A DNA stretch of 38,097 nucleotides. It comes from Acidobacteriota bacterium (GTDB lineage Bacteria; Acidobacteriota; Blastocatellia; Pyrinomonadales; Pyrinomonadaceae). Made by a program: the position numbers and the translations under genes. Below, piece after piece: positions 3-36,644 of this stretch. The notes beneath the pieces are model-generated. The model saw only the letters and a list, made by a program, of their open reading frames with translations, was not told the DNA's origin and did no database searches. The stretch lies in NCBI GenBank assembly GCA_021323895.1, contig JAJPKD010000042.1:1-38097 (forward strand). The letters run 5' to 3'. The stretch's first letter is position 1, and each line of letters opens with the position of its first letter.

Positions 3-1580
3 GAGCAGGACATCATGAGCGGCGACACGATGACTGGCATTCTCAACGACAAGAAGAAACTCCAAAAGATCGAGGTGCGTGGGAACTCTTACCTGCGTTC
101 GATGGATCCCGGGCACGCGGCCGAAGCTCATGCAATCGATATGGATTTCTATTTCGACGCGGATCAGCGGCTGCAGCGCGCGTATGGCTCGCGCGACGTT
201 CGCGCACAAACATTGAATGCCGATTCGGATGTGCAACTGAGCGGATCGAATACTATCGACATGAATTTTCAGGCGCAGGGCGATCAGAGCGTGCTGAAAG
301 AAATGAAGGCCGACGGCCGATCGGTGGCGACGATGTCGGCGCCGAAATCGCGCGAGAACGATCCACGCGCAGCCAGCAAAAGGTTGACGGCAGATTCGAT
401 CAAGATGACCTGGCACACGAACGGCAAGGATTTAGAAAAGGCTGAAGCCGCCGGCAACGCCGAGTTGTACGTCGAGCCGGTACAAAAAACTCCGAAGAAC
501 GACAAGAAAACTTTGACCGCATCGCGGTTCGACTGCGATTTCTTCGAGAGCGGCAACGTCACCAAGACTTGCAACGCCACCGGCGGAGCGAAAGCTTTGC
601 TTGTGCCCTGGCAAGCAACCGACAAGCGCGGCACTCGCACGATCACTTCGCAAACGATGAAGGCTGCGTTTGTTCGCGAAACGCAGGACATCGATCGAGT
701 TGATGCGATTGGCGACGCGAAGTTCAATGAACTCGATCGCAACGGAACGGCCAACACGATTGCCTACACGGCTGCGGATGAAACGGTGCGATTGCGCGGC
801 GGCGATCCGACGGTTTGGGATTCGCGCGCGCGCACCAAAGCGATTGAGATCGATTCCAACAACGCGACGCACACTTCCGTCTGTCGCGGTAAAGTCGCGA
901 CTACTTACTACAGCCAGGAACAAACTAATGGCGCCACGCCGTTTCGCAAGGTCAAGAGTCCGGTTTACATCACCGGCGATCGCGCCGAGATTGATCACGA
1001 TTCGGGACGCGCGACTTATACCGGATCGGCGCGCATGTGGCAGGACGACAACTACGTCCGCAGCGATTCGATCACGCTCTATCGCGCTGACTCGAAGATG
1101 GAAAGTTGGGGACACGTGCAGAGCGCGCTATACCAAGCGAAACAGAAGAACGGTAACTCGACGGCAGTTGTGCCGGCCTTTGCCACCTCGGATTTCATGC
1201 GTTACTCGGACGCTAAACGGCTGTTGCACTACGAGAGCAACGTCGATATTAAGCAGGGTACTGATCGGCTGACTTCCGCCGTTGCCGATGTTTACTTGCA
1301 GAAGGATGTTAACGAGGTCGAACGCACCATCGCGCAGAAGAACGTCACGATCGTGCAGCCGGGAAGACGAGGCACCGGCGATTGGTGTCAGTACACGACT
1401 GCCGATGAAGTGGCCGTGCTGACCGGAAACCCAGCGCACGTCGAAGACGCCGAGCAGGGAACCACCGACGGCAATCGCTTGACGATGTATCGTCGCGAGA
1501 ACCGTGTCGTCGCTGATGATGCGCGCGGCAGTCAATCACCTGGCCGCGTGCGATCGACGCATAAGATTACGAAGCCGTAA
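3..1580 (+). CDS. LptA/OstA-like LPS-export or organic solvent tolerance family protein, probably 5'-truncated by the window edge
   Basis: 521-aa ORF (track start 15) with repeated beta-strand-type motifs (LTADSIKMTW, ITGDRAEIDHDSGRATYTGSARMWQDDNYVRSDSITLYR) typical of OstA/LptA domains; frame is open to the window start. Confidence 0.7.
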   Translation, partial: EQDIMSGDTMTGILNDKKKLQKIEVRGNSYLRSMDPGHAAEAHAIDMDFYFDADQRLQRAYGSRDVRAQTLNADSDVQLSGSNTIDMNFQAQGDQSVLKEMKADGRSVATMSAPKSRENDPRAASKRLTADSIKMTWHTNGKDLEKAEAAGNAELYVEPVQKTPKNDKKTLTASRFDCDFFESGNVTKTCNATGGAKALLVPWQATDKRGTRTITSQTMKAAFVRETQDIDRVDAIGDAKFNELDRNGTANTIAYTAADETVRLRGGDPTVWDSRARTKAIEIDSNNATHTSVCRGKVATTYYSQEQTNGATPFRKVKSPVYITGDRAEIDHDSGRATYTGSARMWQDDNYVRSDSITLYRADSKMESWGHVQSALYQAKQKNGNSTAVVPAFATSDFMRYSDAKRLLHYESNVDIKQGTDRLTSAVADVYLQKDVNEVERTIAQKNVTIVQPGRRGTGDWCQYTTADEVAVLTGNPAHVEDAEQGTTDGNRLTMYRRENRVVADDARGSQSPGRVRSTHKITKP

Positions 1581-1586
1581 AGAACA

Positions 1587-1636
1587 GAGGCTGGAGACTA
1601 GAGGCTGGAGACTAGATGTTCCCAGCCTCTAGTCTC
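1587..1636. repeat. GAGGCTGGAGACTA tandem plus inverted copy upstream of trpB
   Basis: GAGGCTGGAGACTA x2 (1587-1600, 1601-1614); CCAGCCTCTAGTCTC (1622-1636) is the perfect reverse complement of 1594-1608. Confidence 0.9.
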
Positions 1637-1648
1637 TGCGAGTGTTCC

Positions 1649-2878
1649 ATGAACGCAATCACACAACCAGATTCACTCGGCCACTGGGGACCTTACGGCG
1701 GACGCTTTGTGCCTGAGACTTTGATGGCGCCGCTGGAAGAGTTGACCGCGGCGTATGCAGCAGCGCGCGAAGACGAAACCTTCCAAAGTGAACTCGATCA
1801 ATTACTGCGCGACTATGCCGGCCGGCCGACCCCTCTGTTTTTCGCTCAGCGTTTGACTGAACATTGCGGCGGTGCGCGAATCTATCTGAAGCGCGAAGAT
1901 CTTCTGCACACGGGCGCGCACAAAATCAACAACACGCTCGGGCAAATTTTGCTGGCGCGGCGCATGGGCAAGCGTCGCATCATTGCTGAAACCGGCGCGG
2001 GCCAACACGGCGTGGCGACGGCGACAGTGTGCGCGCTGTTCGGACTTGAGTGCGTTGTTTACATGGGCGCGGAGGACATGCGACGCCAGGCGCTGAATGT
2101 TTTTCGCATGCAATTGCTCGGCGCCGAAGTGCGCGAAGTCGATGCCGGATCGCGCACGCTAAAAGATGCAATCAACGAAGCTCTGCGTGATTGGGTGACG
2201 AATGTCGCCGACACTTACTATTTGCTGGGCAGCGCTCTTGGTCCACATCCTTATCCGTTGATCGTGCGCGATTTTCAAAGCGTGATCGGTCGCGAAGCGC
2301 GAGCGCAAATTGCAGGCAAAGAAAATCGCTTGCCCGATTGTTTGATTGCCTGTGTCGGAGGTGGATCAAATTCAATTTGTTTGTTCCATCCGTTTCTGGG
2401 TGACGAATCAGTGAAGATGATTGGCGTGGAAGCCGGCGGCCGTGGCAACGAACTCGGCGAACACGCCGCGCGATTCAACTCGAATGGCGGCGGCCGGCCT
2501 GGAGTCTTGCAAGGAACGATGAGTTACGTCTTGCAGGATGAGCGCGGACAAATCGCGATGACACATTCGATCTCAGCGGGCCTTGATTATCCTTCGATTG
2601 GACCAGAGCACGCCTTCCTTCACGACGAAGGTCGCGTCGAATACACGTCCGTATCTGATGATGAAGCGCTGGATGCATTTCAGTTGCTATCGAAACTCGA
2701 AGGAATCATTCCGGCGTTGGAATCGGCGCACGCCGTAGCGCATGCGATAAAAGTCGCGCGCGAGATGAAGAGCGATCAGATCATGATCGTTAATCTGTCG
2801 GGTCGCGGCGATAAGGATATTGATAGCGCGCGAAACAAAATAATCACTGAGGACGCAGAGAAAATTAGCCGCAGATGA
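1649..2878 (+). CDS. trpB: Tryptophan synthase beta chain
   Basis: [45 protein letters not shown] motifs; start at 1649 preferred over ORF start 1616, which lies in a repeat. Confidence 0.97.
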
Positions 2879-2968: not shown

Positions 2969-3838
2969 ATGTCGATGTCCCGAATTGCTGAAGCATTTAC
3001 TAACCTCAAACGCGCGGGCCGGAAAGGCTTCATCCCTTTCATCACCGCTGGCGATCCCGATCTGCGAACTACGAAAGAACTAATCGTCGAGTTGGCGCGC
3101 GCCGGCGCGACTGTCATCGAACTCGGCATTCCCTTCAGCGATCCGATGGCTGACGGCCCCGTAATTCAACGCGCATCCGAGCGCGCTCTGCGTCACGGAT
3201 TTGGAATCGCCGATGTGCTCGAGATCGTTTCCGAAGCGCGCGGGGAAACAGACGTTCCGGTAATTCTGTTCAGCTATTTCAATCCATTACTTCAATTTTG
3301 CGTCGAGGGGAGGACAAGTCCTCCCTCTAAACAAATTGGTTTAGAGGCCGGACTTGTCCGGCCCGGAGTGGACTTTGAAAAACTTGCCAGCGAAGCCAAG
3401 CGCGCGGGCGTGGACGGCGTGCTCGTTACAGACCTCGTGCCTGAAGAAGCGATCGAATTCGCTTCAGTACTCAAAGCTACTGATCTTGATCTGATTTTTC
3501 TGGTGGCTCCGACTTCCACCGATGAACGTTTGAAAATGATCGCCGAGCGCACGAGCGGTTTCATCTATGCCGTCTCGCGCGCGGGAGTTACCGGCGCGCG
3601 TGAAGAGATGAATGTTGAAGCTGAGAAGCTGGTCAACCGTGTGCGTCGATTTTCTCCTCTGCCGGTTGCCGTTGGATTCGGTATCTCCAAACCTGAACAG
3701 GTCCGCGACGTTTGGCGTTACGCGGATGGGGCCGTGGTCGGATCGGCAATCGTCCAATTGGTTGAAAAATCGGTGAATTCCGCGGACGTTGTGATCAAAG
3801 TTGGCGAGTTCGCACGTCACTTGGCAGCCGGAAGTTAG
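2969..3838 (+). CDS. trpA: Tryptophan synthase alpha chain with an in-frame repeat-encoded insertion
   Basis: FIPFITAGDPD, ELGIPFSDPMADGPVIQRAS, AGVDGVLVTDLVPEE, SRAGVTGAR motifs; about 20 extra residues (GRTSPPSKQIGLEAGLVRPG). Confidence 0.96.
   Translation: MSMSRIAEAFTNLKRAGRKGFIPFITAGDPDLRTTKELIVELARAGATVIELGIPFSDPMADGPVIQRASERALRHGFGIADVLEIVSEARGETDVPVILFSYFNPLLQFCVEGRTSPPSKQIGLEAGLVRPGVDFEKLASEAKRAGVDGVLVTDLVPEEAIEFASVLKATDLDLIFLVAPTSTDERLKMIAERTSGFIYAVSRAGVTGAREEMNVEAEKLVNRVRRFSPLPVAVGFGISKPEQVRDVWRYADGAVVGSAIVQLVEKSVNSADVVIKVGEFARHLAAGS
3308..3364. repeat. GTTTAGAG-family paired hairpin element inside trpA
   Basis: GGGAGGACAAGTCCTCCC-TCTAAAC-AAATTG-GTTTAGA-GGCCGGACTTGTCCGGCC. Confidence 0.93.
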
Positions 3839-4055
3839 CTCTCGACGAAAAGAGACGTTTGGAGTATCCTAACGCCGCTTTTTTTGAGACTTGAAAATCT
3901 GAACCGCGCGCTCTCACTCCCGGCCCGCATCGGGATTGCGCAGAGAGGGCTGCCGAGACCGCGCAGTCGCTTAATGCCTCAAACCCTCTGAAAATAATCG
4001 CGTTGCACGCGTGAAACACTGTTCCATTCTTGCTTGACTTGTGTTATGCTGCGCC

Positions 4056-4098
4056 GTGTCAGTACCCGGAGCGATAGCGACGGGATCAAAGCGGTACT
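4056..4098. repeat. GTGTCAG-family half-element upstream of recA
   Basis: GTGTCAGTA-CCCG-GAGCGATAGCGA-CGGG-ATCAA, followed by GCGGTACT remnant. Confidence 0.85.
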
Positions 4099-13560: not shown

Positions 13561-13566
13561 GAATTC

Positions 13567-13678
13567 ATCCGCAGATTACGCAGATTACACAGATAAGCAG
13601 AGGGAATTGATGCATTGTGCGGTCCACGCTCCAACTGCATTTCCATTTGAATCGGTGTAATCTGCGTAATCTGTGGAT
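13567..13678. repeat. 28-bp inverted repeat between dnaB and alr
   Basis: ATCCGCAGATTACGCAGATTACACAGAT (13567-13594) vs ATCGGTGTAATCTGCGTAATCTGTGGAT (13651-13678): 26/28 complementary. Confidence 0.95.
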
Positions 13679-15279: not shown

Positions 15280-15960
15280 ATGGCTGAGGCCGGCAAGCTG
15301 ACAATCAAAGTTAATGAAGCTGATTCCGTGACGGCGATGCTGTATCCGGCCGCGAAGAAAAATCGCGCGGGCGTGACGATCATACTCGGTCATGGTGCCG
15401 GCGCGGATCAGTTGAGCGGGTTCATGCGCATGGCTGCGGCAGGATTGGCTGAGCGTGGCTTGGATGCGATGACTTTCAACTTCATCTACAAAGAGAAAGG
15501 CAAGAGCGTCCCAGATCCGAAAGCGAAGTTGGAAGCTTGTTACCTGGCAGTAATTGAAGCCGCGGAGAAGAACAAGAAGCTGAAAGGCAACAAGCTCGTC
15601 ATCGGCGGCAAGTCGATGGGTGGACGCATCGCTTCACAGGTTGCGGCCGCGTACCCAGACGGCATCGATGGTCTGGTCTTTCTCGGTTATCCGCTGCATC
15701 CACCGGGACGGCTCGACAAGTTACGTGACGAACATCTGCCAAAGATCAAAGCGCCGATGCTCTTCGTGCAGGGATCGCGCGATGCGTTTGGGACGGAAGA
15801 TGAGATTCGCGCGACGATTAAGAAACATGGCCTGAAGGCCGAGCTTTTCGTCGTCGCATCCGGCGATCATTCTTTCAAAGTTCCGAAATCCATCGCACCG
15901 CAGCAGCAGGTTTACGAGAAGGTGATGGATGAAGTCGCGCGGTGGTGTGTAAAGCTGTAA
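15280..15960 (+). CDS. Alpha/beta-hydrolase, KANL3/Tex30-like
   Basis: ILGHGAGADQLSGFMR, GGKSMGGRIASQVAA, MLFVQGSRDAFGT, GDHSFKVPK. Confidence 0.85.
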   Translation: MAEAGKLTIKVNEADSVTAMLYPAAKKNRAGVTIILGHGAGADQLSGFMRMAAAGLAERGLDAMTFNFIYKEKGKSVPDPKAKLEACYLAVIEAAEKNKKLKGNKLVIGGKSMGGRIASQVAAAYPDGIDGLVFLGYPLHPPGRLDKLRDEHLPKIKAPMLFVQGSRDAFGTEDEIRATIKKHGLKAELFVVASGDHSFKVPKSIAPQQQVYEKVMDEVARWCVKL

Positions 15961-15961
15961 C

Positions 15962-16025
15962 GTGTCAGAAGCCCGAGCGCGAGCGAGGGCAACGTTGCCC
16001 TCCCTGACGGTCGGGCTTCTAACAC
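15962..16025. repeat. GTGTCAG-family full paired element (64 bp, two 32-nt halves) upstream of phzF-like gene
   Basis: GTGTCAGAA-GCCC-GAGCGCGAGCGA-GGGC-AAC/GTT-GCCC-TCCCTGACGGTC-GGGC-TTCTAACAC. Confidence 0.95.
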
Positions 16026-16038
16026 AGCGGAGGATCAC

Positions 16039-16989
16039 ATGCCAAATTACAAATTCATTCAACTCGATGTATTCACCGATACGGCTTTCACTGGCAATCC
16101 GCTTGCGGTCTTTCCCGAAGCCGAAGGCATCACCGATCAGCAGATGCAGCAGATCGCGCGCGAGATGAATTTGTCAGAAACCGTTTTCGTTCTGCCGTCG
16201 GAACATGAAGAAGCGTCGCGGCGATTGCGCATCTTCACGCCCTCGAGCGAGCTGCCGTTCGCAGGTCACCCCATCGCCGGCACGTGGAATTGTCTTGCGC
16301 GCGAAGGCGTGGTTGCGCCGCCCGAAAGTGGCAACGGCTGGGTTCACATCAAGCATGAAGTGGGCATCGGCGTGCTGCCGATCGATATTGAGTTCAAAGA
16401 CGGCGAGCCGGTGCGCGTCGTGATGACGCAAGGAAAATGGGAAATCAAAGCTGAGATCGAAGACTGGAACGATCAAGCGGACATCGCGCGCGGGCTAGGT
16501 TTGTCGCGCGACGATCTCGATGAAACGTTGCCGATTCAGGCATGCTCAACCGGCAATACGATGTTGATGGTGCCGATCAGATCGCTCGCCGATCTCGGAC
16601 GTTGCCGGCCAAATGTTCTGCTGCTGGAAGAAGTGTACGCGCGGAATGGCTTTGCCAGTTCAGGCGCGACTGGATGCTATGCGTTCACGCGCGAAACGAT
16701 TGAAGTGGGCGCGGCGCGCGCGCACGCGCGATTCTTCGTCGGACAGAACATCGGTGAAGATCCTGCCACAGGTAGCGCGGCTGGTCCGTTGGGTGGCTAT
16801 CTGGTCTATCACGACGCGACTCGGGTTGATTCATTGGACGGCATGTACAAGTTCGTGATCGAGCAGGGCGACTTTATCAATCGTCCAAGTCGCATTGAAT
16901 TGGAAGTAAAAGGGGCGCCGGGCAAAGTCGAAGAGGTGCGCGTCGGCGGATCATCGGTGGTTGTGGCAAGAGGCGTGTTGGAATTCTGA
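16039..16989 (+). CDS. PhzF family phenazine biosynthesis-like isomerase/epimerase
   Basis: QLDVFTDTAFTGNPLAVF, MNLSETVFVLP, LPFAGHPIAGTWN, EDPATGSAAGPLGGYL. Confidence 0.93.
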   Translation: MPNYKFIQLDVFTDTAFTGNPLAVFPEAEGITDQQMQQIAREMNLSETVFVLPSEHEEASRRLRIFTPSSELPFAGHPIAGTWNCLAREGVVAPPESGNGWVHIKHEVGIGVLPIDIEFKDGEPVRVVMTQGKWEIKAEIEDWNDQADIARGLGLSRDDLDETLPIQACSTGNTMLMVPIRSLADLGRCRPNVLLLEEVYARNGFASSGATGCYAFTRETIEVGAARAHARFFVGQNIGEDPATGSAAGPLGGYLVYHDATRVDSLDGMYKFVIEQGDFINRPSRIELEVKGAPGKVEEVRVGGSSVVVARGVLEF

Positions 16990-16990
16990 A

Positions 16991-17155
16991 ACGTGTCAGT
17001 ACCGCGAGCGATAGCGAGCGGATCAAGTGATTCTAATGAAAGTGTCAGTATTGATCGCAAACTAGATCAACCAGATCACGTCTTTTGAGCGCGTCGCTAC
17101 CGGTTATCACGGCAAGTACTTGATCCGCTCGCTATAGCTCGCGGTACTGACACGT
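16991..17155. repeat. GTGTCAG-family 165-bp element with 38-bp terminal inverted repeats
   Basis: 16991-17028 vs 17118-17155: 37/38 complementary; contains a third internal GTGTCAGTA hairpin at 17042-17070. Confidence 0.95.
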
Positions 17156-30882: not shown

Positions 30883-31512
30883 GTGCTGGCCGTCGCAAAA
30901 ACGCTAAAAACCGTGGGATCGTCCGCAGATTACGCAGATTCCGCTGACAGAGGACAAAATAGACGCGCCGATTTGGGGCGATCTGAAAGGTCCCTCAGCC
31001 TCGAAACCCTCTTCGAACAACATCACGATCGAGTTTTCCGCACCGCCTATCGCGTGACCGGCAGTGCCGCTGATGCCGAAGACGTGTTGCAGACAGTTTT
31101 CTTGCGCCTCGCTCATGGACAGGAAGGCGCAGACGCCGCGCAAAACACGGAAGCGTATCTGTCGCGTGCGGCAATCAATGCATCGCTGGATCTGTTGCGT
31201 TCGCGGAAACGATCGAAAGCCGTCGCCATGGACGATGTCGAAGGCGCCGCAAGCGTCGCTGAATTTGTCACGAAGCAAAACCCGGCATCGCATCAGGAAG
31301 ACCGCGAACTACGAACGTTGATTCGCGAAGCGGTGGCGAAGTTGGGCGAGACCGCGGGTCAGATGTTCGCGCTGCGCTATTTCGAAGGATATGGCAATGC
31401 CGAGATCGCGAGCATCATGAACACGTCGCCGCTGGTTGTCGGCGTGACATTGCATCGCGCACGAGCGCGGCTGCGCAAAGAGATTGGAAGATACCTGAGG
31501 CACTCAGTTTAG
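30883..31512 (+). CDS. ECF-type RNA polymerase sigma factor
   Basis: LFEQHHDRVFRTAYRVTGSAADAEDVLQTVFLRL and YFEGYGNAEIASIMNTSPLVVGVTLHRARARLRKEI; AGGAGG 5 nt before GTG 30883 (ORF track starts at 30823). Confidence 0.88.
   Translation: MLAVAKTLKTVGSSADYADSADRGQNRRADLGRSERSLSLETLFEQHHDRVFRTAYRVTGSAADAEDVLQTVFLRLAHGQEGADAAQNTEAYLSRAAINASLDLLRSRKRSKAVAMDDVEGAASVAEFVTKQNPASHQEDRELRTLIREAVAKLGETAGQMFALRYFEGYGNAEIASIMNTSPLVVGVTLHRARARLRKEIGRYLRHSV
30922..30944. repeat. Partial copy of the dnaB-alr repeat arm inside the ECF sigma ORF
   Basis: TCCGCAGATTACGCAGATTCCGC, matches 13568-13587 core. Confidence 0.85.
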
Positions 31513-31557
31513 AGCGCGGACTTGTCCGCGCACGCGGCACAAGTACGACCTCTAAAC
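31507..31557. repeat. GTTTAGAG-family paired element at ECF sigma stop
   Basis: GTTTAGAG-CGCGGACTTGTCCGCG...CACAAGTACGAC-CTCTAAAC. Confidence 0.93.
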
Positions 31558-36560: not shown

Positions 36561-36567
36561 TTGGAGC

Positions 36568-36584
36568 GCGGGCATCCTGCCCGC
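36568..36584. repeat. GC-rich single hairpin after ABC permease
   Basis: GCGGGCATCCTGCCCGC. Confidence 0.75.
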
Positions 36585-36590
36585 AAATGC

Positions 36591-36644
36591 GTTTAGAGCG
36601 CGGACTTGTACGCGCATTGCTAGGAACAAGTCCCGACTCTAAAC
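36591..36644. repeat. GTTTAGAG-family paired element between ABC permease and second ATPase
   Basis: GTTTAGAG-CGCGGACTTGTACGCGC...GGAACAAGTCCCGA-CTCTAAAC. Confidence 0.93.

Follow-up and report, generated by a model that had tools for sequence, protein, structure and literature searches.

A REP-type repeat pair inserted in frame in the trpA gene of an acidobacterium

RESULTS AND DISCUSSION

The trpA locus and its palindromic element

The DNA analyzed (the window) is a 38,097-nt stretch from an Acidobacteriota bacterium of the family Pyrinomonadaceae. The gene encoding the tryptophan synthase beta chain, trpB (ORF at positions 1616 to 2878, plus strand; named from its translation), lies directly 5' of trpA (2969 to 3838, plus strand), an ORF encoding an alpha chain of 289 amino acids (Pfam PF00290, E = 1.3e-86). 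A TrpA search found this single trpA in the genome, and its frame is open across all 289 codons, with no stop and no frameshift.

Within this frame are two tagged hairpins, which we identify below as REP units and which were scored with covariance model R2. Unit 1 (3307 to 3332, minus strand; 42.5 bits, E = 1.3e-8) consists of the tag GTTTAGAG and the hairpin GGGAGGA-CTTG-TCCTCCC. Unit 2 (3339 to 3364, plus strand; 45 bits, E = 2.2e-9), the top-scoring copy in the genome, consists of the same tag and the hairpin GGCCGGA-CTTG-TCCGGCC. The tags face inward and are separated by the 6-nt spacer AAATTG (3333 to 3338, no strand assigned). An earlier note, made without database searches, had described three consecutive perfect stems within the open frame of trpA. 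The stems and their coordinates proved correct, as did the claim that the frame is kept: hairpin 1, GGGAGGACAAGTCCTCCC (3308 to 3325), and hairpin 2, GGCCGGACTTGTCCGGCC (3346 to 3363), both have perfect 7-bp stems, and the tags pair in a perfect stem between them, CTCTAAAC-AAATTG-GTTTAGAG (3325 to 3346). The term "three hairpins" needs qualifying, however; the stems are perfect, but the 58-nt element folded alone is predicted to form one long hairpin (−37.8 kcal/mol).

There were five such hairpins in trpA versus a mean of 0.4 in shuffled sequences, but the maximum among 300 shuffles was six; on its own, the number of hairpins is therefore less convincing than the repeat family. The tag GTTTAGAG occurred six times in the window versus 0.36 expected, and 0 of 100 shuffles reached six; GGACTTGTCC, allowing ≤1 mismatch, also occurred six times (1.2 expected). 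Tag and core searches and the covariance model both found the tag and core of the trpA element again, as claimed, in two intergenic REPINs of two units each (31507 to 31557 and 36591 to 36644, no strand assigned). The tags of these pairs face outward and those of the trpA pair inward, also as claimed.

Comparison with other TrpA proteins

We aligned 30 TrpAs, including that of the window, drawn from its genus, family, and class. Between NPLLQF and the next helix, the protein of the window carries an additional 24 residues (72 nt), approximately CVEGRTSPPSKQIGLEAGLVRPGV (encoded at 3299 to 3373, plus strand; edges uncertain by about 3 codons). No insertion was present at this site in 28 of the 30 aligned proteins; the TrpA of a congener, G002 (75% identity), has a 15-residue insertion of its own at the same site. 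Among the 91 genomes of the family with a TrpA match, the alignment runs through the insert region only in the window's genome (G000) and G002. Each of the 38 PDB TrpA sequences retrieved matches in two separate stretches; in those displayed, the break falls at the insert. Likewise, the insert is absent from all 39 TrpAs of named genomes, of which those of Ramlibacter and Variovorax have 4-residue extensions at the site.

A clean insertion of 19 to 20 residues relative to close relatives had been proposed. That size fits the REP pair itself, which covers about 57 of the 72 inserted nt (about 19 residues), the remaining ∼15 nt lying around GVDFE; the insertion as a whole, measured against other TrpAs, comes to 24 residues. 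It is clean with respect to the 28 aligned relatives that have 0 residues there, but not with respect to G002. We considered whether the G002 insertion might be a decayed REP and found no support for this, as its alignment to the REP insert was equaled by 35% of shuffles. Because an unrelated-looking insertion occupies the same site in G002, the loop was perhaps extended before the element came, and the ∼15 unexplained nt and the xFE residues common to both proteins point the same way. These sequence comparisons suggest that the TrpA loop had already been extended in a common ancestor, before the REP arrived.

Three of the six congeners (G001, G003, and G004), two of them >90% complete, have no TrpA match, and loss of tryptophan synthesis is possible in these genomes. 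To call trpA an "essential-type" enzyme gene, as was done earlier, is therefore too strong.

The repeat family and its transposase

Each unit of the family has the head GTTTAGA(G) and a hairpin whose 7-bp stem covaries and whose loop is CTTG. The covariance model (E ≤ 0.01) placed about 46 units, nearly all in inverted pairs, at 30 loci of the 4.4-Mb genome; the model also found 23 to 82 units in each of the six congeners and few or zero in most other genera. An exact search of the relatives for paired tags matched the window's own genome only, but the covariance model showed that search to have been too strict. Stems picked without regard to pairing were 84% Watson-Crick over 86 distinct stems, with 507 Watson-Crick pairs versus a shuffled mean of 347 and a shuffled maximum of 381. 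Adjacent pairs in the fetched loci were outward in 46 cases, inward in 2, and on the same strand in 3 + 4; of the two inward pairs, that in trpA is the only one in the window's genome. After spanning ORFs were checked, 2 of about 30 loci in this genome (trpA and a Rieske oxygenase-like gene) were truly intragenic, making the family predominantly extragenic.

The insert in the window's TrpA, together with copies across the genome and the genus, bears out the central claim of the earlier note, that a dispersed palindromic element entered trpA in frame; further copies, including some in ORFs, were sought and found. That no mobile element was involved, the palindrome having arisen by chance or locally in a variable loop, is extremely improbable. 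The loop does tolerate indels (4 residues in Ramlibacter and Variovorax, 15 amino acids in G002), but both halves of the palindrome match the genus-wide family at E = 1e-8 to 1e-9 and the family is RAYT associated; the family-wide search refuted a chance or local origin.

The family is associated with a RAYT transposase in congener G001, where REP units at positions 1295 to 1320 (plus) and 1896 to 1921 (minus) of one locus (L148) bracket a RAYT ORF, which itself sits between two ABC-transporter genes. Its product passes the NCBIfam model NF047646 (REP_Tyr_transpos; 87.8 bits, cutoff 80) and also matches PF01797. In G014, from another genus, a RAYT with 69% identity to it is bracketed by 3 + 4 GTTTAGA...CTTG units. 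Less similar RAYTs (47 to 52% identical; in G002, in G012, and at a second G001 locus) have at their flanks sister REPs with heads GTTTAGAG or GTTTGGAG and other loops; thus, head and loop go with the RAYT lineage. The window's own genome had no match to the G001 RAYT at E ≤ 1e-10, and since this genome is 95% complete, absence of the RAYT is likely but not certain. Its Y1_Tnp loci were considered as the cognate RAYT and rejected because their flanks carry other repeats or none of the trpA type.

The family thus has the features of REPs and REPINs: a tagged dispersed hairpin, inverted doublets, an extragenic bias, and a RAYT flanked by inverted copies. It lacks the canonical GT[AG]G (or CGTC) head, its own head being GTTTAGAG. 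Since REP-like structures that lack GT[AG]G yet are RAYT linked have been described (subclasses 2.6 and 3; PMC6006769), we file the trpA element as a REP/REPIN with an atypical head, not as a GTAG REP. The earlier note had missed this link to REP/REPIN elements and RAYTs.

In-frame copies in other genes

We inspected 93 REP groups for in-frame insertions; the Rieske, VWA, and M1 names were read from sequence. Besides trpA, convincing in-frame copies were found in a Rieske oxygenase-like (Rieske dioxygenase) gene, both in the window's genome (contig C312) and in G005; in a gene for a VWA-domain protein of G001, after the signal peptide; and in an M1 aminopeptidase gene of G013. Copies that seemed intragenic at the ProRS, DUF1385-like, and TsaE genes were set aside, since the likely start codon of each gene is downstream of the copy.

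The Rieske site differs among species. Near-perfect but differing stems are present in the window's genome and G005; in G002 the tag is kept and the stem has decayed; in G003 essentially the tag alone is left; and G004 has extra length only. The outgroups G014, G015, and G040 are without most or all of the extra residues. This series (intact, tag only, decayed, absent) illustrates how a mobile repeat can become ordinary coding sequence. The Rieske ortholog of G006 (L218/L230) has a different palindromic insertion (CGGTACGCAGGCC...GGCTTGCGTACCG) in the same loop that holds the REP in its congeners, which suggests that this loop is an insertion-tolerant spot that has been hit more than once.

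Such copies could have been kept because they are useful. The trpA pair might supply an mRNA hairpin through which trpA expression is tuned, or add a novel peptide where TrpA meets TrpB, and both trpA hairpins are indeed perfect and among the highest-scoring copies in the genome. The Rieske loop, too, retains REP-derived sequence in several species, two of them with near-perfect, different stems. However, recent insertion explains the high scores equally well, the Rieske copies have decayed in G002, G003, and G004, as neutral inserts would, and the target proteins are unrelated; we consider retention for use quite improbable. A broader version also seems to us improbable: that REP units have repeatedly become fixed in protein loops of the genus, that their palindromes are preserved at orthologous sites (the near-perfect, different Rieske stems of G000 and G005), and that REP-encoded peptides or mRNA hairpins have been recruited, including at the TrpA-TrpB interface.

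Predicted consequences for TrpA

Compared with its G002 ortholog, trpA has a dN of ∼0.17 and a dS of ∼2 (saturated), giving a dN/dS of ∼0.09. The gene has thus been under purifying selection, although with dS saturated, selection since the insertion is not separately dated. The alignment shows that conserved TrpA residues are retained. In the AlphaFold2 model (40 sequences; mean pLDDT, 89), the TIM barrel is predicted to be intact and the insert forms a loop of low confidence (pLDDT, ∼47 to 63); the best fold matches of this model are solved TrpA chains. The insert probably gives what would be a working enzyme an additional floppy loop, about 20 amino acids long. The insert directly follows residues equivalent to E. 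coli Asn104 to Phe107; in E. coli TrpA, Asn104 and Phe107 lie at the alpha/beta interface (PMC8187860), so an effect of the insert on TrpB activation is possible.

The same position could be taken to mean that the REP pair impaired or killed TrpA and that trpA is a decaying pseudogene, and the three congeners with no TrpA match indicate that trpA loss occurs in the genus. But the 289 open codons, the low dN/dS versus G002, the conserved residues, and the barrel predicted to be intact all argue against decay, and we regard it as unlikely.

TrpA might instead be made without the insert if the element were removed before or after translation, in the manner of an intron or a processed RNA. The very stable hairpin predicted for the RNA would be compatible with removal. 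Yet the insert is in frame and free of stop codons, neither of which removal would require; the same REP family keeps the frame in three other genes; and the 26-nt hairpin unit is too small to be a known self-splicing core. Removal is accordingly very improbable. Translation is the probable outcome, because the length of the element kept the frame and both tags are in stop-free frames.

Proposed origin

We think it very likely that a REP dimer of a RAYT-spread family transposed into the β3-α3 loop of trpA and is translated in frame in a TrpA that remains functional. The dimer would be a REPIN-type nonautonomous element of the IS200/RAYT kind, and the β3-α3 loop an indel-tolerant target. A RAYT similar to that found between two copies in G001 probably spread the family, and the window's own genome seems to have lost its RAYT. 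Dimers of either orientation have been proposed to arise by alternative processing of circular intermediates (PMC3733652), and the inward tags of the trpA pair fit this model: a circular single-stranded intermediate of an outward-tag pair may have been opened between the hairpins rather than between the tags. The element, probably translated, would lengthen a flexible surface loop by ∼19 residues and leave TrpA functional.

Relation to known systems

Like known REP/REPIN elements with their RAYT (TnpA-REP) transposases, the trpA family has a short 5' tag plus a hairpin, is dispersed and mostly intergenic in inverted pairs, and includes a RAYT gene bracketed by two inverted copies. It differs from canonical REPs in its head, GTTTAGA(G) versus GT[AG]G, and is further distinguished by a nearly perfect 7-bp palindromic stem with a CTTG loop and by the lack of a cognate RAYT in the window's genome.

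REPs inside ORFs, often dimers encoding 20 to 30 amino acids, were reported in 2013; these were GTAG and CGTC REPs in uvrA, recB, dnaE2, and other genes (PMC3733652). As in trpA, they are in-frame dimers in conserved enzymes and are presumed to be neutral loop insertions, but the REP family here is another one and the targets are trpA, Rieske, M1, and VWA genes; the main text of PMC3733652 mentions neither trpA nor tryptophan. In-frame REPs in a peripheral loop were also reported in 2018 within tnpA-REP (RAYT) genes of subclass 2.4 (PMC6006769), where, in contrast to trpA, the target is the transposase itself. Rickettsia palindromic elements (RPE) are likewise palindromic mobile elements translated in frame inside genes, and it is in this respect that they resemble the trpA element. 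Unlike the trpA family, with its RAYT link, the CGTC-type RPE-4 and RPE-6 families have no linked transposase genes (PMC3733652).

The earlier note knew of no description of this family, and we found none for the GTTTAGAG family in the main texts of the open-access papers searched. The class is another matter: as a RAYT-linked REP/REPIN, the trpA element belongs to a class already described, in-frame copies in ORFs included (PMC3733652). The insertion is therefore an intragenic REP event of a known kind, apparently involving a new repeat family and a new target gene. It brings to light an atypical-head REP/RAYT family from a bacterial group that has received little study, and a REP dimer that is probably tolerated beside the alpha/beta interface of a classic allosteric enzyme.

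Other repeats in the window and genome

A second dispersed inverted repeat, CGTGTCAGTACCGCGAGCGATAGCGAGCGGATCAA, occurs in the window at 16983 to 17155, 4046 to 4089, and 15952 to 16025. Because it also surrounds a Y1-transposase ORF on another contig (C88, L047), it is probably a further REP family, served by a RAYT of its own. At about 1363 to 1988 of L048 (G000:C216), a RAYT-like ORF bracketed by an inverted pair of TTTTGGAGTGCGGCGGCTTGACGCCGCTTT makes up a third REP/RAYT unit of the genome. Repeats of the CCGCAGATTACGCAGATTACACAGAT type are found in the window at 13565 to 13678, 30919 to 30947, and 2866 to 2947, and a palindrome resembling this type fills the gap between trpB and trpA. The hairpin GCGGGCATCCTGCCCGC (36567 to 36583), which adjoins the REPIN at 36591, is possibly another REP family.
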